Assembly (NCBI GenBank): GCA_026390595.1 | Contig: JAPLFQ010000022.1 | Location: forward strand, 1 to 64,000 | Direction of reading: 5' to 3' | Source of the DNA: Ignavibacteriales bacterium | GTDB lineage: Bacteria > Bacteroidota > Ignavibacteria > UBA10030 | DNA: 64,000 nucleotides | Part shown: in pieces, positions 17,274-27,676 of the stretch | Layout: every line of letters begins with the position of its first letter | Numbering within the stretch: the first letter of the stretch is position 1 | The notes under the pieces: model-generated | Seen by the model: the letters and a program-made list of their open reading frames with translations, nothing else | What the model was told of the DNA's origin: nothing | Database searches by the model: none | Made by a program: the position numbers and the translations under genes

Positions 17274-18212
17274 ATGATCTCCAAATACTCTCTGAATCAG
17301 ATGTCAAAGAAAAAGCTCATTGGCAGTCTCGCCATCATTCTCTTTCTCGCCGTGGCGTTCACGGTCGCCTTCTACCAGTACTCGCTCGACATCGGGCGCG
17401 AACGTATCATCGTTTCCAATCACTCCCCCGTTGACTCCATTGCTCTTTTAAAGCCCGTTGTGTACCTGGGAGTGATCTCGCGGTATCCGCCGAATATCAT
17501 CTACCGTGGCTATCAGCCCATCCTGGATTATTTGACATCGAAAACCCAGTACAGATTTGAATTGAAACTGAGTGATGACTACAATCAGGCGGTCCAGATG
17601 CTGGTGCGGAAAGAGGTTGCCGCGGCATTCCTTGGTTCCTATGTCTACGTCAAGGCTCACCAGGACTATGGAATCATTCCGATCCTGAAGCCGCTCAATG
17701 AAAACTCCGAACCGTTTTCGCGCTCCGTTGTCATCACCGGGATCACGAGCAAGATCTACAGCATCAATGACCTGAAAGGAAAACGGCTTGCCCTCCCTTC
17801 CAGGGAATCATTCTCAAGCATCTGGCTCGTCAGAAATGAACTGCCAAAGCATGCCATCAGGGAGCGGGATCTCGCCGAAATACGGAACTTCCCTCATCAC
17901 CAGAGCGTCATCCACAACGTGATGAAGAATGTGTATGATGTCGGCGTTACCCGCGAGTACCTCGTCAAGCGATTGATCAACAAGTCCCTTCGCGTGCTGC
18001 TATATTCCGACCCTGTGCCGACTTCACCCATTGTCGTCGCGGCAGATTACCCGAAAGACGTCATACTGGCAATCAAGAAGACTCTGCTGGCGATCGATCA
18101 GACGCATCCGGAACGGTCGACCGTTACGAAGGGTTGGGATATCGAATTCGTTTATGGATTTGTGGAAGCGTCGGATCACGATTACGATATCATCCGGAAT
18201 CTCGGAAGGTAA
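17274..18212 (+). CDS. PhnD-like periplasmic binding protein, membrane-tethered
   Basis: 312 residues: an N-terminal membrane anchor (about 14-33, IGSLAIILFLAVAFTVAF) and a type II binding fold of the phosphate/phosphite/phosphonate PhnD group (VVYLGVISRYPPNIIYRGY, YQPILDYLTSKTQYRFEL, AAAFLGSYVYV, NDLKGKRLALPSRESFSS, DVGVTREYL). There are no ABC permease or ATPase genes nearby; instead the stop is 8 bp before a histidine kinase, so the protein probably serves as the ligand sensor of a three-gene signalling unit. An alternative start is the ATG at 17301. It is divergent from the phosphate uptake operon, which makes phosphate, phosphite or phosphonate the favoured ligand; this is inference. Confidence 0.85.
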   Translation: MISKYSLNQMSKKKLIGSLAIILFLAVAFTVAFYQYSLDIGRERIIVSNHSPVDSIALLKPVVYLGVISRYPPNIIYRGYQPILDYLTSKTQYRFELKLSDDYNQAVQMLVRKEVAAAFLGSYVYVKAHQDYGIIPILKPLNENSEPFSRSVVITGITSKIYSINDLKGKRLALPSRESFSSIWLVRNELPKHAIRERDLAEIRNFPHHQSVIHNVMKNVYDVGVTREYLVKRLINKSLRVLLYSDPVPTSPIVVAADYPKDVILAIKKTLLAIDQTHPERSTVTKGWDIEFVYGFVEASDHDYDIIRNLGR

Positions 18213-18220
18213 CCGAAAGC

Positions 18221-19699
18221 ATGATGTTCACATTGCGGTCAAGCTTGAAAACAAGGATACTCCTGCTCATCGGCTCCGTTGTCGTGCTGCTGATGCTGCT
18301 CATTTCCTCTGTGCTGCTGCTGAAATGGCGGGAGCTCATCATACAGAAGGAAACCGACAATGCGATCTCGATTTCGAAGACATTTTCGGTCACGGTGATC
18401 GACGCCATGATTTTCGAAGAAAAGAGCGTCGTTCAGAAGGAGAATATCCTCGACACGTATGTCGACAATTTTATCAACAGCCTGAAGACTGTGCAGTATG
18501 TGGCCCTCTTCGACCGGAACGGTGCATCGATTCTTCAGACAATCCGCCATGAGAACGGTCGTCCGGATCGGAGCACCGATCACGAGCTCACTCCACAACC
18601 CGACGAGCGTGTCACAATCCGCCGCGACCCTCAGTTCGGATGGGTACTGGAAGTCAACCTCCCCTTCATGTTTTCCGGCAAGCACTGGGGCACCGCCACA
18701 ATCGGGTTTGATGCTCAGCCCATACGGGATGAAATCCAGAGCATCTTCCTGCTTCTGTTGTCCGCGACCGTCCTCATTACCTCCATCGTCCTCATCATCC
18801 TGTTCTTTTCCATCGACCGAATGACCTCTTCGCTGGAAACGATCGTCAGGGAGATCGACAAGATCGATTTCGTTTCCGATGTCGACATCTCCTTGCCCAG
18901 CCAGAACGACGAGATCGGCTTTCTCTACCATCATTTCAGATTGATGATGGACAGACTTGACGTCTCGAAGAAGGAACTCGAACAGGCGCAGCGACAGATT
19001 TACCAGGCCGAAAAGCTGGCATCGATCGGAAGGCTCGCATCGGGGGTGGCCCACCAGGTAAACAACCCTCTCAACGGCATCCGGGCGTGCCTGTATGCGA
19101 TTCAGCAGAATCCCGCAGATATCCCGCAAACCCGCGAATACCTCGGATTGATCAGCGAGGGGATTGCCAGCATCGAAACGGTGGTAAAAAAGCTCCTTGG
19201 CTTCGCACGTCAACAATCAACATCCGACCACGTCATCAACATCAACGACTCCATCGCGACCGTTGCGAACCTCTTTGACCTTCGGCTGAAGGAGAAGAAC
19301 ATCGAAACCACGCTGGAGCTCTCCGGGGATATCGGCTCCGTCAGGATCGATCATCATCTCTTTCAGGAAGTTGTCATGAACCTCCTGCTCAACAGTTACG
19401 ATGCGGTGGGAAACGGCGGCGTCATTCAGATGGCCACCGGCAACAAGGGCAATTCGTCGGTTTTCATGCGAATCAGCGACAACGGCTGCGGTATCAGTCA
19501 GAACGACCTGAAAAGGATTTTCGATCCATTTTTCACAACGAAAGAAGTTGGCACCGGGACCGGATTGGGGCTTTCCGTATGCATGGGAATCATCGAATCT
19601 CACGGAGGGACGATCGAGGTCCGGAGCAATGAGGGAAACGGAACATCATTTACGATTACACTACCACGGGCTGACGCTGATGAAATTACTGATCATTGA
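18221..19699 (+). CDS. HAMP sensor histidine kinase (NtrB-like core)
   Basis: 492 residues from the ATG at 18221, 8 bp after the PhnD-like gene, with GGAAGG upstream. TM1 about 12-35, a periplasmic domain about 36-170, TM2 about 175-200, HAMP to about 255, a short coil, then HisKA with H278 (ASGVAHQVNNPLNG) and HATPase_c (VVMNLLLNSYDAV, SDNGCGI, FDPFFTTKEVGTGTGLGLSV). The residue after the phospho-acceptor His is Q279 instead of the usual acidic E/D, which may lower autokinase or phosphatase activity. It overlaps the response regulator gene by 20 bases. It likely receives the signal from the tethered PhnD-like protein. Confidence 0.92.
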   Translation: MMFTLRSSLKTRILLLIGSVVVLLMLLISSVLLLKWRELIIQKETDNAISISKTFSVTVIDAMIFEEKSVVQKENILDTYVDNFINSLKTVQYVALFDRNGASILQTIRHENGRPDRSTDHELTPQPDERVTIRRDPQFGWVLEVNLPFMFSGKHWGTATIGFDAQPIRDEIQSIFLLLLSATVLITSIVLIILFFSIDRMTSSLETIVREIDKIDFVSDVDISLPSQNDEIGFLYHHFRLMMDRLDVSKKELEQAQRQIYQAEKLASIGRLASGVAHQVNNPLNGIRACLYAIQQNPADIPQTREYLGLISEGIASIETVVKKLLGFARQQSTSDHVININDSIATVANLFDLRLKEKNIETTLELSGDIGSVRIDHHLFQEVVMNLLLNSYDAVGNGGVIQMATGNKGNSSVFMRISDNGCGISQNDLKRIFDPFFTTKEVGTGTGLGLSVCMGIIESHGGTIEVRSNEGNGTSFTITLPRADADEITDH

Positions 19700-21035
19700 A
19701 GATGAGAAGATCACCCGCATTTCGCTGAGCGACATCCTCAAACGGGAAGGATATGAAGTCTATTCCGCTGAGGACGGCGAAGAAGGACTCGCCACCTACA
19801 AATCGGTGCTGCCTGAAGTTGTGATCACCGATCTGCGATTGCCCAAGCTCGGCGGCATGGAAGTGCTGCAGACCGTACTGTCGCTGGATCCCCGATGCAA
19901 GGTAATCCTTATCACCGCGTACGCGAGCGTCGAGACTGCCATCTCGTCGTTGAAGCTCGGCGCATTCGACTACCTGACAAAACCCTTCTCTCCGGAGAAG
20001 CTGTTGTCTATCCTGCGGAACATCACGCTGCTCCAATCGGCGCTCAACGAGAACGCAGAACTGAAGAACCGGATTGAGATCCTCGAAGACAAGACGATCA
20101 TCGGCAATTCGCTGATCATTCATAAGCTCAAGGAAACAATCCTTCAAATCGCCCACAACGATTCCACGGTACTGATCGAGGGGGAAAGCGGAACAGGAAA
20201 AGAACTGGTGGCGCGTGCGCTGCACAAAGCGAGTCCACGGCGCGATGGGAGCTTCGTGGCCGTGAGTTGTTCGAGCATTCCGGAAAGCCTCCTGGAGAGT
20301 GAACTGTTCGGGCATGAGAAAGGGGCCTTCACCGGAGCCATAAGAAAGCACATCGGGTACTTCGAGCGGGCGAACAAGGGAACGATCTTCATCGACGATG
20401 TTGACGATTTTCCTTTGAGCATGCAGGTGAAGCTCCTGAGGGTGATTCAGGAGAGAGAGCTCATGCCTGTCGGCGGGAGCGCAAACGTGAACATCGATGT
20501 GCGGATCATTTGCGCCACAAAAATCCATCTCAAGAAACGGGTTGAGGAGAAATTGTTTCGCGAAGACCTCTTCTATCGATTAAACATCATCCCCATCAGA
20601 ATTCCCCCGCTGCGAGAGCGCAAAGAGGATATTCCTCTGCTGGTCGACCATTTCTTCAGAAAACACCGGGCCGAAGACAAGATCATGCTCCTCACCCACG
20701 AAATCTACAATGCCCTCAAGGAGCACGATTGGCCGGGCAATGTGCGCGAGCTGGAAAACATCGTTGAAAGGATGATCGCTTTGTCGTTCAGCGGAACAAT
20801 CGATCTTTCTGTTCTGGACTTGTCGGAGAAAAAGCGGGGCGTGCTGCTGAAGGAGAATTATGGTGACTACGGTTCATTCGATGAGTTCATCTCGAAGAAG
20901 GAGAAGGAAATGCTGGAATGGGCGCTGGATGCCTGTCAGAACAACGTCACTGGCGCTGCGAAACTCCTGAACATCCCCAGAACAACTCTCAACAGCAAAC
21001 TCGGCCGGCTGCTTCCCCATCTTAAAACTCACTGA
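19680..21035 (+). CDS. sigma-54-dependent NtrC-family response regulator
   Basis: 451 residues from the ATG at 19680 (an earlier open frame lies inside the kinase gene). Receiver domain 1-120 with phospho-acceptor D51 (VVITDLRLPKLGG) and K101; AAA+ domain about 140-380 with Walker A GESGTGKE (168-175), intact GAFTGA loop (215-220) for sigma-54 contact and Walker B GTIFIDD (234-240); C-terminal Fis-type helix-turn-helix (NNVTGAAKLLNIPRTTLNSKL). It should activate sigma-54 promoters when phosphorylated by the overlapping kinase. The target is unknown; the adjacent phosphate operon is the natural candidate, though I saw no convincing GG-N10-GC promoter in 17025-17273. Confidence 0.94.
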   Translation: MKLLIIEDEKITRISLSDILKREGYEVYSAEDGEEGLATYKSVLPEVVITDLRLPKLGGMEVLQTVLSLDPRCKVILITAYASVETAISSLKLGAFDYLTKPFSPEKLLSILRNITLLQSALNENAELKNRIEILEDKTIIGNSLIIHKLKETILQIAHNDSTVLIEGESGTGKELVARALHKASPRRDGSFVAVSCSSIPESLLESELFGHEKGAFTGAIRKHIGYFERANKGTIFIDDVDDFPLSMQVKLLRVIQERELMPVGGSANVNIDVRIICATKIHLKKRVEEKLFREDLFYRLNIIPIRIPPLRERKEDIPLLVDHFFRKHRAEDKIMLLTHEIYNALKEHDWPGNVRELENIVERMIALSFSGTIDLSVLDLSEKKRGVLLKENYGDYGSFDEFISKKEKEMLEWALDACQNNVTGAAKLLNIPRTTLNSKLGRLLPHLKTH

Positions 21036-21513: not shown

Positions 21514-23367
21514 ATGAGCGAAACCAGAGTGCACACATTTCACATTCCGGTGATGGGGCTGGCGTTCTCCATCGACACACCGGTCAAAGTCGCGCGGTTT
21601 GGGATATCCTCCGTGGTATCCATCGTCGACGACATCCTCATCGAGCATATGCGGAAACAACATGCCGCCGAGCGCGGTGAGGCTTACACCCCCATCACGA
21701 CGAAAGATTACGACTACCGCGCCCGCAGAATTACCGAGTACCTCAATCTCCTGCAGCGAATCGTGCATGATCAAATCGCGTCGCTCAGGACCTCTGCGTT
21801 CGAAAAAGGAAGCGAAATAGTTAAATACTTCGAAATGCTCGCGGACCAATCTCCGTTGAAAGCGATGTACCAGCGACTGATGCACACGGACGACTCTGCT
21901 GCACGTGCGCAACTCGAACAAGAGCTGCGCTCAAAGATCGTCGCCGGCGAGATCGACGTCAACATCATGACGAAGCTGGACCGCCTGGCGCCGCCGAAAA
22001 ACGGGCAGCCGCTCCCGTCTGAGTTTTCCGATGCACTGTCTTCACTGCGGGGATTTGCGAAGAGCGACCTCAACTCGTCCGTCGTTCTCTCCGCCGGATT
22101 GAATTCGCGCCTCTTCAATTATATGGCGCAGTTCCCCGATTTTCTTCCCGATGAACACGGAGAGCTTCGAAAAAGAGTCACATTAAAAGTGAGCGATTAC
22201 CGGTCTGCCTACATTCAGGGCAAGATCCTGGCGAAGAAGGGAATCTGGGTTTCAGAGTACCGCGTCGAGTCGGGGCTGAATTGCGGCGGTCATGCGTTTG
22301 CGTCCGACGGAGACCTTCTCGGACCGATCCTCGAAGTTTTCAAGACTAATAAAACCACCCTGATCAACGAACTTCACGAGCTCTACACCGCAGCCCTGGT
22401 GTCAAAGGGCGTGCATGTGCCGGATCAACCATTGCCGGTGCTGGTTACCGTTCAAGGAGGAATCGGCACGACGAAAGAAGACGAATTCCTCCGTGACTTC
22501 TATCAGGTTGATGGCACGGGCTGGGGATCTCCCTTCCTCCTCGTTCCGGAAGCAACGAATGTGGACGACAGGACGAGGCAGCAACTGGCCCAGGCAACAA
22601 GGGAAGACTTCTATATCAGCGATTCATCTCCGCTCGGCATTCCGTTCAACAACATTCGCAACACAACAGGCGAGCAGCAACTCTACCAGCGCGTCGCAAA
22701 GGGAAAGCCCGGCAGTCCGTGCGAGAAGAAGTTCCTCTGCAGCAACACGGAGTTCACCAAAGACCCTATCTGCACGGCGTCGTCACAGTATCAGCGGTTG
22801 AAGATCAAGCAGCTGGAAGATATGGAACTTCCGTCGGACGAGCTGCAATATAAGCTCGGGAAGCTTCACGAGAAGACCTGCCTGTGCGAAGACCTCGCGG
22901 CCACAGCCCTGAACAACAACGGCGTGTGCGGAGACACCCCTCTCCCCGTTGCCGTATGTCCGGGTCCAAATCTGGCCTATTTCTCCAGAATCGCGACGCT
23001 CGAGGAAATGGTCGGACACATCTACGGCCGCATTCAACTCATGACCGTGAGTAACCGGCCGAACATGTTCATCAACGAGATCAGGCTGAACATCGATCAC
23101 CTGAAGAGCGAAATCCAGAAGGCTCTGAATTCGATTTCCGCGAGGGAGCAGGCACGATTCTCTGAATACAGGAAGAACTTGCTGGAAGGAATAGAGTACT
23201 ATAAGAAGCTCGTTCCGCATCTGGTGAAGGAAAGTGAACGGTATCATGAAATCATGCGTGCGCAGCTCCTGGAGCTGGAAAACGAGTTGATGCAAATCGT
23301 CATCCCTTGCCCATTCGAAGCACAAGGGGAATACCTACAGACGGCGCGTGTTGCGTCCGTTGGCTAA
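21514..23367 (+). CDS. conserved unrecognised cysteine-rich protein, 617 residues
   Basis: I do not recognise a characterised family, though proteins of similar wording occur as conserved hypotheticals in Bacteroidota relatives. No signal peptide or membrane segment, so it is probably cytoplasmic. The N-terminal half is mixed alpha/beta. Around 250-380 a stretch looks like a TIM-barrel, flavin-site-type end (GLNCGGHAF, VTVQGGIGT, GTGWGSPFLLVPEATN, SPLGIPFNNIRN), loosely like NPD/nitronate-monooxygenase proteins. Residues 405-495 hold a dense cysteine set (SPCEKKFLC, ICTASS, KTCLCEDL, GVCGD, VAVCPGPN) suited to an Fe-S cluster or zinc. The last 110 residues are coiled-coil-like helices. AAAGG precedes the ATG. 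A zinc-ribbon gene follows 25-31 bp downstream. A redox or metal role is a guess. Confidence 0.75.
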   Translation: MSETRVHTFHIPVMGLAFSIDTPVKVARFGISSVVSIVDDILIEHMRKQHAAERGEAYTPITTKDYDYRARRITEYLNLLQRIVHDQIASLRTSAFEKGSEIVKYFEMLADQSPLKAMYQRLMHTDDSAARAQLEQELRSKIVAGEIDVNIMTKLDRLAPPKNGQPLPSEFSDALSSLRGFAKSDLNSSVVLSAGLNSRLFNYMAQFPDFLPDEHGELRKRVTLKVSDYRSAYIQGKILAKKGIWVSEYRVESGLNCGGHAFASDGDLLGPILEVFKTNKTTLINELHELYTAALVSKGVHVPDQPLPVLVTVQGGIGTTKEDEFLRDFYQVDGTGWGSPFLLVPEATNVDDRTRQQLAQATREDFYISDSSPLGIPFNNIRNTTGEQQLYQRVAKGKPGSPCEKKFLCSNTEFTKDPICTASSQYQRLKIKQLEDMELPSDELQYKLGKLHEKTCLCEDLAATALNNNGVCGDTPLPVAVCPGPNLAYFSRIATLEEMVGHIYGRIQLMTVSNRPNMFINEIRLNIDHLKSEIQKALNSISAREQARFSEYRKNLLEGIEYYKKLVPHLVKESERYHEIMRAQLLELENELMQIVIPCPFEAQGEYLQTARVASVG

Positions 23368-23398
23368 GCACATTCGATAGATAGAGTGGAGAGTGATC

Positions 23399-23593
23399 GT
23401 GTCAGCAGAACTGAAACAATGTCTTAGCTGCGCCAAGACTGAAGAATCTGTGCCGCTTGTTACGCTGCAATTCAAGGGGGCTGCTCAGTGGATTTGCCCT
23501 CAATGCCTGCCGCAACTTATCCATGCCCCCCACAAGCTCGCCGGAAAGCTGCCGGGAGCCGAAACCATGGGCGGCGCGGAGCACCACCACTAG
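23399..23593 (+). CDS. small zinc-ribbon protein
   Basis: About 64 residues. Two CxxC knuckles, CLSC near the start and CPQC about 28 residues later, make a treble-clef or ribbon zinc site (CLSCAKTEESVPLVTLQFKG then WICPQCLPQLIH), followed by a histidine-ended tail (GGAEHHH). The start is a GTG at 23399 with GTGGAGA just upstream; an alternative GTG at 23393 would add two residues. It lies 31 bp behind the 617-residue protein and is probably its operon partner. Its stop codon is part of the left terminal repeat of the inverted-repeat element that starts at 23590, so that element inserted at or very near the gene end. Confidence 0.65.
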   Translation: MSAELKQCLSCAKTEESVPLVTLQFKGAAQWICPQCLPQLIHAPHKLAGKLPGAETMGGAEHHH

Positions 23594-23771
23594 AGGCTAT
23601 CTCAAAAACCCTCAAAGTCATTGCGAGCGACGCAATCTCACCAAGGTTTGTCGAGACAAAAGAGAGATTGTCCGCCTTTCTGGATCCCGCATAGAGGCGG
23701 ATCCAAAGAGCGGGACTTCGGCAAGAAGCGCCTCGCAATGACGTGGCTGGTGTTTTTGAGATGAGTTCTAG
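23590..23771. repeat. inverted-repeat element, copy 1 (182 bp)
   Basis: The ends are imperfect inverted repeats of about 23 bp: left CTAGAGGCTATCTCAAAAAC, right GTTTTTGAGATGAGTTCTAG (with a shared outer CTAGA). Inside is a second inverted pair, GTCATTGCGAG (23617-23627) and CTCGCAATGAC (23732-23742), a sequence type often dispersed in environmental bacterial genomes. No open frame inside. The same ends occur at 28648-28897 around a different core. Confidence 0.7.
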
Positions 23772-23863: not shown

Positions 23864-24949
23864 CTACTTGTTCGCCGTGTAAAACTCCTCCATGAACTTC
23901 GCCAGCGTTTCCACCGACTCCAACGGGCACGCGTTGTATTGGGACGAGCGGATTCCGCCAACGGAACGATGCCCTTTCAATCCCACCATCTGTTTCTTTT
24001 TCGCTTCTGCCACAAACTTGTCCTCCAGCTCGGGGGTCGGAAGATTCCAAGTGAGGTTCATGATCGACCTGTCCGACTTGTCGGGCACGGTCCCTTTGTA
24101 GAAATCAGGATGTGCGTCGATCACATCATAGATCATCGCGGCTTTCTTCTGGTTGCGGGCTTCGATCGCATCGAGTCCTCCCTCCTTCTGGATCCACTTC
24201 AGCGTCTTGCCGAGAACGAATACAGCCAGGACTGGCGGAGTGTTGTAGAGAGACTTGCCATCGACGTGCGTCTTGTATTTCAGCATCGTTGGCACCTCCT
24301 CCTTCGCCTTTGCTTCGAGATAGGCTCGCTTGATGACAATCATCGTGACGCCTGCCGGACCGAGGTTCTTCTGAGCTCCGGCATAGATGAGGCTGTACCG
24401 GCTCCACTCCCGCTTCATACCAAACATATCCGACGACATGTCAGAGATGAGCGGCACGCTGCCGACATCCGGAATTGATTTCCATTCCGTTCCGTAGATT
24501 GTATTATTGGTCGTAATGTGCATGTAGTCAGCATCAGGTGAGAACTTGAAGCTCTTGGGTAAATAGTTGAAATTCTTGTCCTTGGAGCTTGCGGCCTCAT
24601 TCACGGTTCCAAATGCCTTCGCTTCCTTCGCGGCTTTCGTGGCCCACTCACCGGTTACAAGATAGTCGGCTTTCGTATGGAGAAAATTCATCGGCAGCAT
24701 CGCGAACTGAAGGCTTGCCCCACCGCCGACAAAGATGACGGCGTAGTCCTGGGCATTCAGTCCCATGATTGCCAGCGCGTCCTTTTCTGCGTCCTGAATA
24801 ACGACATCGAATTCCTTCGAACGGTGGCTGATCTCGAGAATCGAGACCCCCAGATTGGCAAAATTCACAACAGCATCCCGCGTTTCTTCGAGGACCGATA
24901 CCGGAAGAACTGCTGGGCCCGCATAGAAGTTATGTGCTCGATTAGACAT
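23864..24949 (-). CDS. serC: phosphoserine aminotransferase
   Basis: 361 residues, the usual SerC length. It converts 3-phosphohydroxypyruvate and glutamate to phosphoserine and 2-oxoglutarate in the cytoplasm. Fold type I aminotransferase with PLP: N-terminal FYAGPAVLPVSVLEE, the conserved SHRSKEF, GGGAS at 75-79 for the PLP phosphate, and the Schiff-base lysine K194 in IYAGAQKNLGPAG. The C-terminal GLKGHRSVGGIRSS block is also typical of SerC. It is divergent from serA across 326 bp, so the two middle enzymes of serine synthesis share one intergenic control region. The gene symbol rests on motif match throughout. Confidence 0.95.
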   Translation of the reverse strand: MSNRAHNFYAGPAVLPVSVLEETRDAVVNFANLGVSILEISHRSKEFDVVIQDAEKDALAIMGLNAQDYAVIFVGGGASLQFAMLPMNFLHTKADYLVTGEWATKAAKEAKAFGTVNEAASSKDKNFNYLPKSFKFSPDADYMHITTNNTIYGTEWKSIPDVGSVPLISDMSSDMFGMKREWSRYSLIYAGAQKNLGPAGVTMIVIKRAYLEAKAKEEVPTMLKYKTHVDGKSLYNTPPVLAVFVLGKTLKWIQKEGGLDAIEARNQKKAAMIYDVIDAHPDFYKGTVPDKSDRSIMNLTWNLPTPELEDKFVAEAKKKQMVGLKGHRSVGGIRSSQYNACPLESVETLAKFMEEFYTANK

Positions 24950-25275
24950 CGGAAGTCTCCTTCGTCAGGCTTGAAGTGGGTGGAGAAGCAGAAATTGTAC
25001 ATATGCAATATATGATTTTTTCGATCACGCGGAAAGTGAGGCGTTTTATTTTCTGTCCTGGCGTCAAATGAAAACCGGCGGTCTGTCGTCTCGAAAACAG
25101 GAATTGTCACGCCGCTCCGATCGTTCTCAGTTGTCACTTCAAACAAAATTCATTACGTTTCGCCCCATCAAGCCGGGAACCAGAGCGATCATTGACGCGG
25201 CTTCCTGCAAGCGTTCTCTGTATGTACTGACTCTCGTCCGGGCTCACAATCTCATCTTTGAATTCGGAGGCGTCC
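24950..25275. promoter_or_regulatory. divergent serC-serA control region
   Basis: 326 bp between the two start codons must hold promoters for both genes. I see an AT-rich stretch around 24995-25060 but no hexamers or palindrome that I would assign with confidence. The serA side ends in a strong CGGAGG site. Confidence 0.4.
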
Positions 25276-26196
25276 ATGAAGATACTCATCACAGACGGAA
25301 TTTCTCCTGAGGGGGCAAAAATCCTGCTTGATGCAGGGCACGATGTCGACCAGGTAAAGTATACGCCGGAAGAACTGCTGACAAACATCGGCAAGTACGA
25401 TTGCATTATCGTTCGTTCGGCCACAAAGGTTACCAGGGAAGTCATCGAAGCTGGGAAGAACCTGAAGGTCATTGCACGGGGCGGCGTCGGGCTGGACAAC
25501 ATCGACGTCGAAGTTGCAAAGGCGAAGAACCTTGCGGTCCTCAACACTCCCGGCGCATCGGCGATCTCCGTCGCCGAGCTGGCAATCGGACACATGTTTG
25601 CCCTGAGCCGGTTTCTGCACGTCAGCAAAATGGACATGATTGCAGGCAAGTGGCCGAAGAAGGAATACTCGAAGGGCATCGAACTGACGGGCAAGACGCT
25701 CGGGGTCATGGGATTCGGAAATATCGGCAAGGAAACAGCCCGCCGGGCTTTGGGTCTGAGCATGAACGTGCTCGCCTTCGATCCACCGTTCACGATGATG
25801 GACTTTGTCGTGCGGATCACGACGCGCGAGAAACTCCTCGAAGCATCCGACTTCATCACGCTCCACATCCCCGCGGATAAGAAAGCCGGTCCGGCCATCG
25901 GGAAAAAGGAATTCGACATGATGAAGAAGGGGGCTATCCTCATTAACTGCTCTCGCGGCGGTGTGGTCGATGAATCTGCGCTCCTCGACGCACTCGAAAG
26001 CGGCAAGGTCGCCGGCGCGGCGCTGGATGTATTTATGAACGAACCGCCGACGGATGCTCAGAAGGCCCTCATCAATCATCCGCGGGTCAGCGTGTCTCCG
26101 CATATCGGTGGATCTACAATAGAAGGCCAGGAGCGGGTCGGCATCGAGATCGCTCAGCGCGTCGTGAAGGCGTTCAATCCCGACGCATTCCACTAG
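25276..26196 (+). CDS. serA: D-3-phosphoglycerate dehydrogenase (short form, no ACT domain)
   Basis: 306 residues from the ATG at 25276 behind CGGAGG; an in-frame ATG 18 bases upstream lacks a site. NAD-dependent 2-hydroxyacid dehydrogenase: catalytic-domain start KILITDGISPEGAKIL, Rossmann motif GFGNIG at 146-151, catalytic R227 (SRGG), E256 (NEPP) and H276 (SPHIGGST). The protein ends right after the catalytic domain, so the C-terminal ACT serine-sensing domain of long SerA enzymes is absent and feedback control by serine is unlikely in that form. It catalyses the first step of serine synthesis and is flanked by serC and DUF1015, which supports SerA over other hydroxyacid dehydrogenases. 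Confidence 0.92.
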   Translation: MKILITDGISPEGAKILLDAGHDVDQVKYTPEELLTNIGKYDCIIVRSATKVTREVIEAGKNLKVIARGGVGLDNIDVEVAKAKNLAVLNTPGASAISVAELAIGHMFALSRFLHVSKMDMIAGKWPKKEYSKGIELTGKTLGVMGFGNIGKETARRALGLSMNVLAFDPPFTMMDFVVRITTREKLLEASDFITLHIPADKKAGPAIGKKEFDMMKKGAILINCSRGGVVDESALLDALESGKVAGAALDVFMNEPPTDAQKALINHPRVSVSPHIGGSTIEGQERVGIEIAQRVVKAFNPDAFH

Positions 26197-26303
26197 CCAG
26201 GGTGCGGAAAAACAAAATATCGTCACGTTGAGCGAAGCCTGACGAGGTTTTTCTTTTGGATGCCTTTTTCCGCATCATCCTTGGGTCCACTTACAACAAT
26301 CGC

Positions 26304-26414
26304 TTCACCACAAAGGCACTGAGCCAAAGGCTCATGCGCCTCTGGCGCAGAAGACTCGAATTGAGTTGCGGAGACGAGAGGTTATTTGTTTCTCTTTGTG
26401 TCTTCGTAGTTGAA
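26304..26414. repeat. ACCAC-type inverted repeat, copy 1, with two triloop hairpins
   Basis: Ends TTCACCACAAAGGCAC and GTGTCTTCGTAGTTGAA are imperfect inverted repeats. Inside, two adjacent perfect hairpins with three-base loops stand at 26321-26333 (GAGCC-AAA-GGCTC) and 26336-26348 (GCGCC-TCT-GGCGC). It fills most of the serA-DUF1015 gap. A related copy is at 49403-49464. Confidence 0.6.
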
Positions 26415-26434
26415 AAAAGGAATCAACACTCTCT

Positions 26435-27676
26435 ATGGCAACTGTTCGTCCGTTCAAAGCATTTCGTCCAAAACCGGAATTCGCAGGCGAGGTCGCAGCG
26501 AAACCGTATGACGTCCTGAGCTCTGAAGAAGCGCGTCTGGAAGTCCGCGGGAACCCCCTGTCATTTCTTCACGTCGGCAAACCAGAGATCGACCTGGATC
26601 CGGCGATTGACCATTACGATCCTCGTGTCTATACGAAGGGGAAAGAGAATCTTCAGAAGCTGATCGACCAGAAGATTCTGGCAGAAGACCCGGCTCCGTA
26701 TCTGTATGTGTACGCGCAGACAATGGAAGGACGGACACAGTACGGCATCGTCGGCTGTGCCTCGGTAGAGGAGTATCTGAACGACACGATCAAGAAGCAC
26801 GAGCTCACTCGTAGAGACAAGGAGGAGGACCGCTGCAACCACGTGCGGGTCACCAACTCGCACTCCGGCCCGATCTTTCTGACGTATCCGGACAACGCTG
26901 AGATTGATGCCATCGTGGAGGCGGTCACGAAGCAGCCTCCCGAGAATGATCACGTTGCTGCTGACGGGATTCGGCATCAGTCGTGGGTTATCAGGGATTC
27001 GGGCACGGTTCAGAAGCTCCAAGATCTCTTCAGCGGAATCCGGAACTTGTACGTTGCTGACGGACATCACAGGACAGCCGCGGCGGCAATCGTGGGACGC
27101 GAACGGAAGCTCGCAAACCCGAATCACCGGGGAGACGAAGAGTACAACTTCTTCCTGGCTGTCTGCTTCCCTGCCAGTCAGCTCAAGATCCTCGACTACA
27201 ACCGTGTTGTGAAAGACCTCAGCGGTCTGAGCCCGGAAGCGTTCTTCGAGAAAGTGAAAAAGACCTTTGCTGTGGCACATATCCAGGGCCGGCCCCGGCT
27301 TGCACGAAAGGGAGAGTTCGGCCTGTATCTCGACGGTGAGTGGTACTTGTTATCGGCGCCGGATTCATTGCTGATGAACAGCGATCCCGTTGAGCGGCTT
27401 GACGTGACAATCATCCAGAAACACCTGCTCGACCCGATACTTGGCATCAAGGACCCACGCGTGGACAAGCGCATCGATTTCGTTGGCGGCATTCGCGGCC
27501 TGGGCGAACTTGAGAAGCGGGTAGACTCCGGAGAGATGAAGCTCGCGATCTGCATGTTCCCCACTTCGATCCACGAGTTGATCGCCATAGCCGATGCCGG
27601 CAAAATAATGCCTCCCAAATCGACTTGGTTTGAACCGAAGCTGCGGGACGGGCTGTTTGTGCATTTCCTGGAGTAG
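26435..27676 (+). CDS. DUF1015 family protein of the serine locus
   Basis: 413 residues matching DUF1015 from end to end: VRPFKAFRPKPEFAGEVAAKPYDVLS at the start, HELTRRDKEEDR at 122-133 and VADGHHRTAAA with DGHHR at 209-213. The DGHHR motif resembles the active-site motif of ParB/Srx-fold kinases that phosphorylate free serine, so a serine-kinase-like role is possible. The gene lies 238 bp behind serA in the same direction and opposite serC, a context seen in other bacteria. A link to serine metabolism is therefore well supported by context, the reaction itself is inference. Cytoplasmic, no signal peptide. Confidence 0.88.
   Translation: MATVRPFKAFRPKPEFAGEVAAKPYDVLSSEEARLEVRGNPLSFLHVGKPEIDLDPAIDHYDPRVYTKGKENLQKLIDQKILAEDPAPYLYVYAQTMEGRTQYGIVGCASVEEYLNDTIKKHELTRRDKEEDRCNHVRVTNSHSGPIFLTYPDNAEIDAIVEAVTKQPPENDHVAADGIRHQSWVIRDSGTVQKLQDLFSGIRNLYVADGHHRTAAAAIVGRERKLANPNHRGDEEYNFFLAVCFPASQLKILDYNRVVKDLSGLSPEAFFEKVKKTFAVAHIQGRPRLARKGEFGLYLDGEWYLLSAPDSLLMNSDPVERLDVTIIQKHLLDPILGIKDPRVDKRIDFVGGIRGLGELEKRVDSGEMKLAICMFPTSIHELIAIADAGKIMPPKSTWFEPKLRDGLFVHFLE

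Follow-up and report, generated by a model that had tools for sequence, protein, structure and literature searches.

The stretch analysed here, hereafter the window, comprises the first 64,000 nucleotides of contig JAPLFQ010000022.1 of an Ignavibacteriales bacterium (assembly GCA_026390595.1) and carries, in close succession on the forward strand, the genes of a 617-residue cysteine-rich protein and of a 64-residue zinc-ribbon-like protein. This arrangement, described by an original prediction made from the DNA letters, was confirmed by the open reading frames (ORFs), at 21514-23367 and 23399-23593. Computational analysis of the larger protein found a conserved family, conserved residues, a fold match and a recurrent gene neighbourhood, from which we infer flavin mononucleotide (FMN) binding, an iron-sulfur (Fe-S) cluster, an electron path and a physiological role. 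With moderate confidence, we propose that it is an FMN/[4Fe-4S] oxidoreductase with a nitronate monooxygenase (NMO)-type barrel that takes part in a nitric oxide (NO) and low-oxygen programme. The features of the gene pair are the following.

21514-23367, + strand: whole gene of the 617-residue enzyme, predicted to be FabX-like with FMN and a putative [4Fe-4S] cluster; ORF with an ATG start.
21514-22554, + strand: residues 1-347, predicted FMN-type TIM barrel (models, fold matches, alignments).
22270-22293, + strand: residues 253-260, SGLNCGGH motif with invariant Cys257 and His260 (alignments, model).
22453-22551, + strand: residues 314-346, QGGIGT ... GWGSPFLLVPE, expected FMN-phosphate loops (alignments, profile comparison).
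22720-22959, + strand: cysteine subdomain with conserved C403, C420, C456, C458 and C482 as putative [4Fe-4S] ligands (alignment, placement relative to FabX).
23056-23313, + strand: residues 515-600, C-terminal helices, variable in sequence (model, alignment).
23399-23593, + strand: 64-residue zinc-ribbon-like ORF (CxxC, CxxC) with a GTG start, adjoining the enzyme gene in the window's genus only.

Curated models gave no match for the enzyme, in agreement with the original prediction, which could not assign it to any characterised family. The 617-residue protein had no usable family match (best Pfam E 0.19, best NCBIfam E 0.093), and the 64-residue protein matched nothing in Pfam and had a best NCBIfam E of 0.048. 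Nineteen aligned members of the enzyme family returned scattered weak matches only (best Pfam E 0.0062; best NCBIfam E 0.00042, with 15 NCBIfam families matched at E up to 1). PRK00420 (5 of 19 members, best E 0.00042) was taken as chance because the window protein scores 12.8 bits, far under the cut-off of 162, and sll1863_fam (1 of 19 members, E 0.00043) was dismissed as chance too. HZS_alpha was matched weakly by one of the 19 members (E 0.0062), presumably the sequence from a Myxococcales-labelled contig (L039:1996-4542) in which the enzyme frame is extended by about 270 residues, including a CxxCH motif, through either a fusion or an assembly fault. In a PDB sequence profile search, 11 of 12 matches were to apolipoprotein A-I and fell on the C-terminal helices (best E 0.017). 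A literature search by title and abstract start found no description of the enzyme, most subscription journals being outside its coverage.

The enzyme belongs to a real, more-than-chance family that is strongly conserved and carried by about four in ten of the phylum genomes sampled, yet it lies outside all the Pfam and NCBIfam models searched. Homologues were detected in 54 of 100 relatives, source genome included, and in 152 of the 392 phylum genomes, as a single match in 150 of them and as two and three matches in G243 and G189, respectively; the match in G374, with an E value of 1.5e-41, was a weak one. Twenty further homologue loci were collected from genome contigs, including those of Dyadobacter, Chitinophaga and Daejeonella and contigs labelled Omnitrophota and Myxococcales. 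The two alignments (A1 and A2) comprised the window protein and 18 of these 20 loci, L022 and L031 being left out, with identities to the window protein of 43-91% in A1. A plasmid search gave no match, the 14 pattern matches on viral contigs included no relative, and the best match among viral structures was a COG2070 protein (E 1.3e-3). For residue conservation and neighbourhoods, a set of 81 sequences was assembled from the window protein, the 20 contig loci and 60 of the 152 phylum matches, hand-chosen with the intention of representing each genus once. A quick tree built from this set placed genome families f35 and f15 on distant branches, suggesting transfer or old paralogy.

Seven cysteines cluster in the window protein (403, 409, 420, 456, 458, 472 and 482), so that the count of at least seven in the original prediction stood, with conservation limited to five of them. 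C403 and C482 were kept in all 81 sequences, as were C257 and H260, and C420, C456 and C458 in 80, the remaining sequence being gapped, whereas C409, C472 and also C599 were variable. Conservation of the cysteines across the 81 sequences thus runs counter to the possibility, raised with the original prediction, that homologues would lack them, and it extends to Cys257, beside the expected active-site histidine. G315, G316, G318, W337 and F341 were likewise kept in 81 of 81 sequences, the N-terminal signature HxFHIPVxG was near-invariant, and the other family signatures were SGLNCGGH, QGGxG, GW..PFLL.P, GSxC, CxC and CPGPN. At motif level, the family therefore contains the GGH and loop motifs of the NMO superfamily: His260 probably occupies the position of the catalytic histidine of NMO and FabX, as judged from the motif, and QGGIGT and GWGSPFLLVPE are, by comparison with the NMO family, presumably the FMN-phosphate loops.

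Structure prediction and structural searching, the check suggested at the outset, matched a known superfamily, in a branch without a defined reaction. The AlphaFold model of the window protein (predicted local distance difference test (pLDDT) 80.0, predicted template modelling score (pTM) 0.80) has a barrel that opens the protein, with a strand already at residues 9-11, and extends to about residue 347, with a long helical stretch inside it (residues 40-141), followed by the cysteine region and C-terminal helices. The flavin-barrel-like part of the original prediction was thus upheld by modelling, although at the N terminus and not in the middle of the protein, and its coiled-coil end corresponds to the modelled helices. 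Foldseek ranked FabX of Helicobacter pylori first (9lt5, E 5.7e-8), as did VIA-align (7e1q, Z 24.3, 3.5 Å, 324 of 366 residues, 16% identity), with residues 2-506 of the model placed on residues 12-363 of the 7e1q chain; FabK, PA1024 and nitronate monooxygenases scored at Z 19-22. A homologue from Chitinophaga, sharing 57% identity with the window protein, was modelled as well (pLDDT 83.2, pTM 0.85), and FabX again came first both in VIA-align (9lt5, Z 22.7, 3.3 Å, 322 residues) and in Foldseek (9jsy, E 2.2e-6; next an NMO, E 2.8e-4). The FMN barrel is well supported because two models match NMO, FabK and FabX barrels, and a TIM-barrel fold of the NMO/FabK kind is very probable on the models. 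A special closeness to FabX would be based on its first rank in four lists, and not on a wide gap. With the NMO/FabK/PfaD group (PF03060, TIGR02814), the enzyme shares the predicted barrel fold, at Z within 1 to 5 of FabX, and GGH, GGI and G-x-P-F-type loops; it differs from that group in the absence of a sequence-profile match. TIGR02814, the PfaD family, was absent among the 15 NCBIfam families matched at E up to 1 by the 19 members, and no PfaD family member was found in the 148 genomes searched for it.

In the models, the cysteine subdomain appears to follow the barrel, as in FabX, a decanoyl-acyl-carrier-protein (ACP) dehydrogenase/isomerase (PDB 7e1q). According to PMC8626469, FabX was, as of 2021, the only characterised member of the NMO superfamily with a [4Fe-4S] cluster, bound by C300, C304, C308 and C320 at 13.4 Å from FMN and acting as a one-electron store, while its proposed mechanism assigns the chemistry to His182 and FMN; its homologues are described there as occurring mostly in microaerophilic bacteria. 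By the same account, the other NMO members characterised by 2021 had no Fe-S cluster, unlike the enzyme with its conserved cysteine cluster if that cluster binds Fe-S. Judged from the aligned length and ranges, the alignment should cover at least some 69 residues of the 97-residue FabX cluster subdomain (267-363), with low pLDDT at the cysteines. The histidine of the GGH motif, expected at the flavin, is a further likeness to FabX. Differences include an identity of only 16-18%, the long helical stretch in the barrel, the extra helices after residue 515 and the arrangement of the cysteines; since their spacing differs, we regard the enzyme as FabX-like and not as FabX.

The five invariant cysteines, irregularly spaced, could instead bind structural zinc, making the enzyme a plain FMN oxidoreductase. 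This alternative, which we hold to be possible but rather doubtful, would agree with a spacing unlike that reported for FabX in PMC8626469 and with the nearly equal scores of the cluster-free folds PfaD, FabK and NMO, whereas the place of the subdomain, probably corresponding to the FabX cluster subdomain by aligned length and ranges, and the recurrence of RIC, named as an Fe-S repair protein, among the gene neighbours argue for iron-sulfur. An Fe-S cluster in the cysteine subdomain is, on these predictions, reasonably probable, if slightly less so given that FabX is tied in Z with PfaD and NMO/FabK; the original suggestion of a redox enzyme with Fe-S or zinc thus gained a plausible Fe-S site after the barrel but lost its small partner protein, as described below.

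The neighbourhood of the enzyme gene in other Bacteroidota, another check proposed with the original prediction, revealed recurrent genes related to NO and nitrous oxide (N2O). Neighbours were clustered over the 81 loci (the window, the 20 contig loci and 60 phylum stretches), and the most recurrent were a NosF-like ATP-binding cassette (ABC) ATPase assigned by reading (11 loci), cytochrome c and Rrf2 (9 each), NosZ and NosD-like proteins (8 each), and HemN and RIC (7 each), followed by NosY-like, NosL-like, NadA and NadB proteins, among others. Among the 60 loci meant as genus representatives, the counts were 7 for nosZ, 7 for NosD-like, 9 for Rrf2, 5 for RIC, 4 for HemN and 8 for cytochrome c. 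Hidden Markov model (HMM) searches with single representatives confirmed NosZ, NosD, RIC, Rrf2 and HemN, and identified, among other neighbours, a globin, a hemerythrin, a DUF2249-ScdA_N-hemerythrin protein, members of the heme-copper oxidase family and a response regulator-Crp fusion. At one locus (L116), the enzyme gene is flanked on one side by a nos operon and on the other by a NorBC-like pair, assigned by reading; at two others, an Rrf2 gene begins 2 bp after the enzyme gene (L101) or finishes 24 bp before it (L109). PMC6264515 reports that clade II nos scaffolds are enriched in Rrf2 genes. A scan for upstream operators at 33 loci found scattered FNR-like or sigma-54-like matches with two mismatches, none of them consistent. 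NadA (quinolinate synthase) was found near the enzyme in 6 of the 60 loci and NadB in 5 (L089, L101, L114, L116, L117 and L129), the NadA of L101 being confirmed by HMM.

In the phylum as a whole, at least 21 carriers have nosZ no more than 13 kb from the enzyme gene (16 of f35, three of f33 and one each of f34 and f25), while 3 of the 24 nosZ places looked up are beyond that distance, and RIC lies within 250 bp in at least 18 carriers (17 of f35 and one of f33), on the same strand in 17 and divergent in one (G300); these distances were picked by eye and the counts are lower bounds. RIC was present in 99 of the 152 carriers, compared with 56 of the 240 non-carriers (odds ratio 6.1; E <1e-40, 155 genomes, 146 of them above the curated cut-off), and NosZ, counted when over its cut-off (133 genomes), in 70 and 63, respectively (odds ratio 2.4), both ratios being calculated irrespective of kinship. 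Because the tie to RIC is stronger than that to NosZ, NO handling is favoured over N2O respiration as such. The enzyme has neighbourhoods and genomes in common with the Fe-S repair protein RIC/YtfE/ScdA but is unrelated to it, RIC being a di-iron protein by its family name. On the tree of the 81 sequences, linkage to nos genes (9 loci), RIC (7) and HemN (7) required six changes each, so that it is not one inherited block, and physical linkage to NO/N2O genes recurs on separate branches. A nitric-oxide and low-oxygen role in Bacteroidota, and perhaps in other phyla, is on this evidence probable.

HemN allows a different reading, namely that the enzyme is a missing oxygen-independent protoporphyrinogen-oxidising enzyme working with HemN. 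HemN occurs within the fetched stretch at 7 of 81 loci, and in Daejeonella it finishes 12 bp before the enzyme gene, but in the relatives it was detected (E <1e-90, 62 genomes, 61 above the cut-off) in 31 of 54 carriers and 31 of 46 non-carriers, and 23 carriers, source genome included, have none. A HemN-coupled anaerobic heme step was rejected as a general role given this lack of co-occurrence, and we consider it very improbable.

Our favoured explanation is an NMO-type FMN barrel joined to a FabX-like cysteine subdomain in which a single [4Fe-4S] cluster is most likely bound, with C403, C420 and two of C456, C458 and C482 as putative ligands. Proton transfer would fall to His260 and hydride transfer to or from the substrate to FMN, and electrons would travel via the cluster between FMN and a one-electron partner, proposed because an NAD(P)H domain was not recognised in the enzyme. 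Cells would use the enzyme when coping with NO and low oxygen, and in our reading it may work like FabX. As a candidate reaction we tentatively put forward a reduction that belongs to the NO-stress side and draws its electrons from a ferredoxin-like carrier, in preference to acyl-ACP dehydrogenation.

The latter reaction would make the enzyme a functional analogue of FabX, an ACP dehydrogenase/isomerase providing unsaturated fatty acids when oxygen is short and sending electrons out through the cluster. FabX heads the fold lists of both models, and the microaerophilic habit of most FabX homologues, as given in PMC8626469, would fit such a role; the low identity to FabX does not, no fatty-acid gene was recognised by reading in any of the 17 recurrent neighbour clusters listed, and fatty-acid desaturases (E up to 0.001; 39 genomes, two of them under the cut-off) were as good as unrelated to the enzyme in distribution, at 23 of 54 carriers and 16 of 46 non-carriers. 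A link with desaturases was accordingly rejected, and we judge the FabX analogue unlikely. Detoxification of nitro compounds or nitronates arising from nitrosative stress, by an NMO-like activity, appears less likely again: the NMO-type fold, the GGH motif and the NO-linked neighbourhood would suit it, and 2gjl (2-nitropropane dioxygenase) is tied in Z with FabX for the Chitinophaga model, but for the window model FabX stands clearly above the NMO entries, a nitro substrate has no direct support, and NMO itself uses oxygen and is not known to have a cluster. In the source genome, a PF03060 search gave three weak places, and no NMO/FabK-type protein was recognised at the two that were read, which look like IMP dehydrogenase and HisA.

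Several observations weigh against the favoured explanation as a whole. With respect to the fold, pLDDT of the window model falls below 50 at residues 258-261, 368-374, 403-415, 454-463 and 468-472, among others; PfaD (4z9r, Z 23.4) is within 1 of FabX for the window model and thus tied with it, and NMO/FabK entries at Z 21-22, including PA1024 and 2gjl, are tied with FabX for the Chitinophaga model. By sequence, hhalign of the 81 members against 19 Bacteroidota NMO/FabK proteins, made without row L137, was not significant (E 0.16, probability 0.4%), although in its single alignment GGIGT falls on GGI and GSPFLLVPE on the G-T-x-F loop; PF03060 was absent among the families matched at E up to 1 by the 19 members; and conserved cysteines at 403, 420, 456, 458 and 482 depart from the C-x3-C-x3-C-x11-C of FabX. 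With respect to the role, RIC and NosZ are both missing from 44 of the 152 carriers, one or the other is present in 81 of the 240 non-carriers, nos, RIC or HemN genes occur in the fetched stretch at only 15 of 81 loci, HemN does not co-occur with the enzyme in relatives, and the co-occurrence tests ignore kinship. NosY, NosL and NnrS-like names were given by reading, HMM searches having returned no such family, and the two Rrf2 neighbours tested fell far under the NsrR cut-off, so that NO sensing by them would be conjectural. In the source genome, RIC and NosZ went unmatched and no HemN candidate passed the cut-off; the genome does encode a qNOR-type NO reductase as well as a cbb3-type oxidase. 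A scan for upstream operators at 33 loci found scattered FNR-like or sigma-54-like matches with two mismatches, none of them consistent.

If the enzyme is an Fe-S flavoenzyme, FabX would no longer be the lone example in the NMO family, and if the link to NO is true, gene clusters for N2O reduction and NO detoxification in Bacteroidota contain an overlooked enzyme. The most far-reaching version, to which we assign a low probability, is that of a second, independent lineage of Fe-S NMO-type flavoenzymes with its own cluster ligation, common in NO/N2O handling by Bacteroidota and using electrons from ferredoxin to convert an NO-derived molecule in a reaction that is not known from any enzyme family.

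Within the window's genus (6 genomes, source included), the zinc-ribbon gene adjoins the enzyme gene in each of the five carriers, and one genome (G001) has neither gene. The original prediction had considered the small protein a metal-binding partner, and the two genes might be a working two-gene unit, as their conserved pairing in five of five carriers and their co-occurrence in relatives, at 31 of 54 enzyme carriers and 9 of 46 non-carriers irrespective of kinship (40 of 100 relatives in total), would suggest. Outside the genus, however, where 26 relatives have the enzyme and the ribbon gene, the two lie on separate contigs in 25 and about 31 kb apart in one, mostly in draft assemblies, and the ribbon surroundings, readable at 4 of 16 places, had no theme in common with the enzyme. 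The zinc ribbon was rejected as a general partner on both grounds; the adjacency is limited to the window's genus, and a two-gene unit is highly improbable.

Upstream of the enzyme gene (17274-21035), genes for a phosphonate-binding-like protein, a histidine kinase and a sigma-54 response regulator lie in a row and stop about 480 bp 5' of it; this trio is little informative because it is absent from the recurrent neighbour clusters listed for the 81 loci. Downstream, the window has an opposite-strand gene identified by reading as serC, one of the serC, serA and DUF1015-like genes (by reading; 23864-27676) that lie 3' of the enzyme across the genus, and the same set occurs at a distant locus of another family (L132:14139-17450). 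Directly 3' of the small ORF (23590-23771), inverted repeat arms of 24 nt at 79% and 20 nt at 80% were detected, the outer arms carrying GTCATTGCGAG on both strands, which might represent a dispersed palindromic element.

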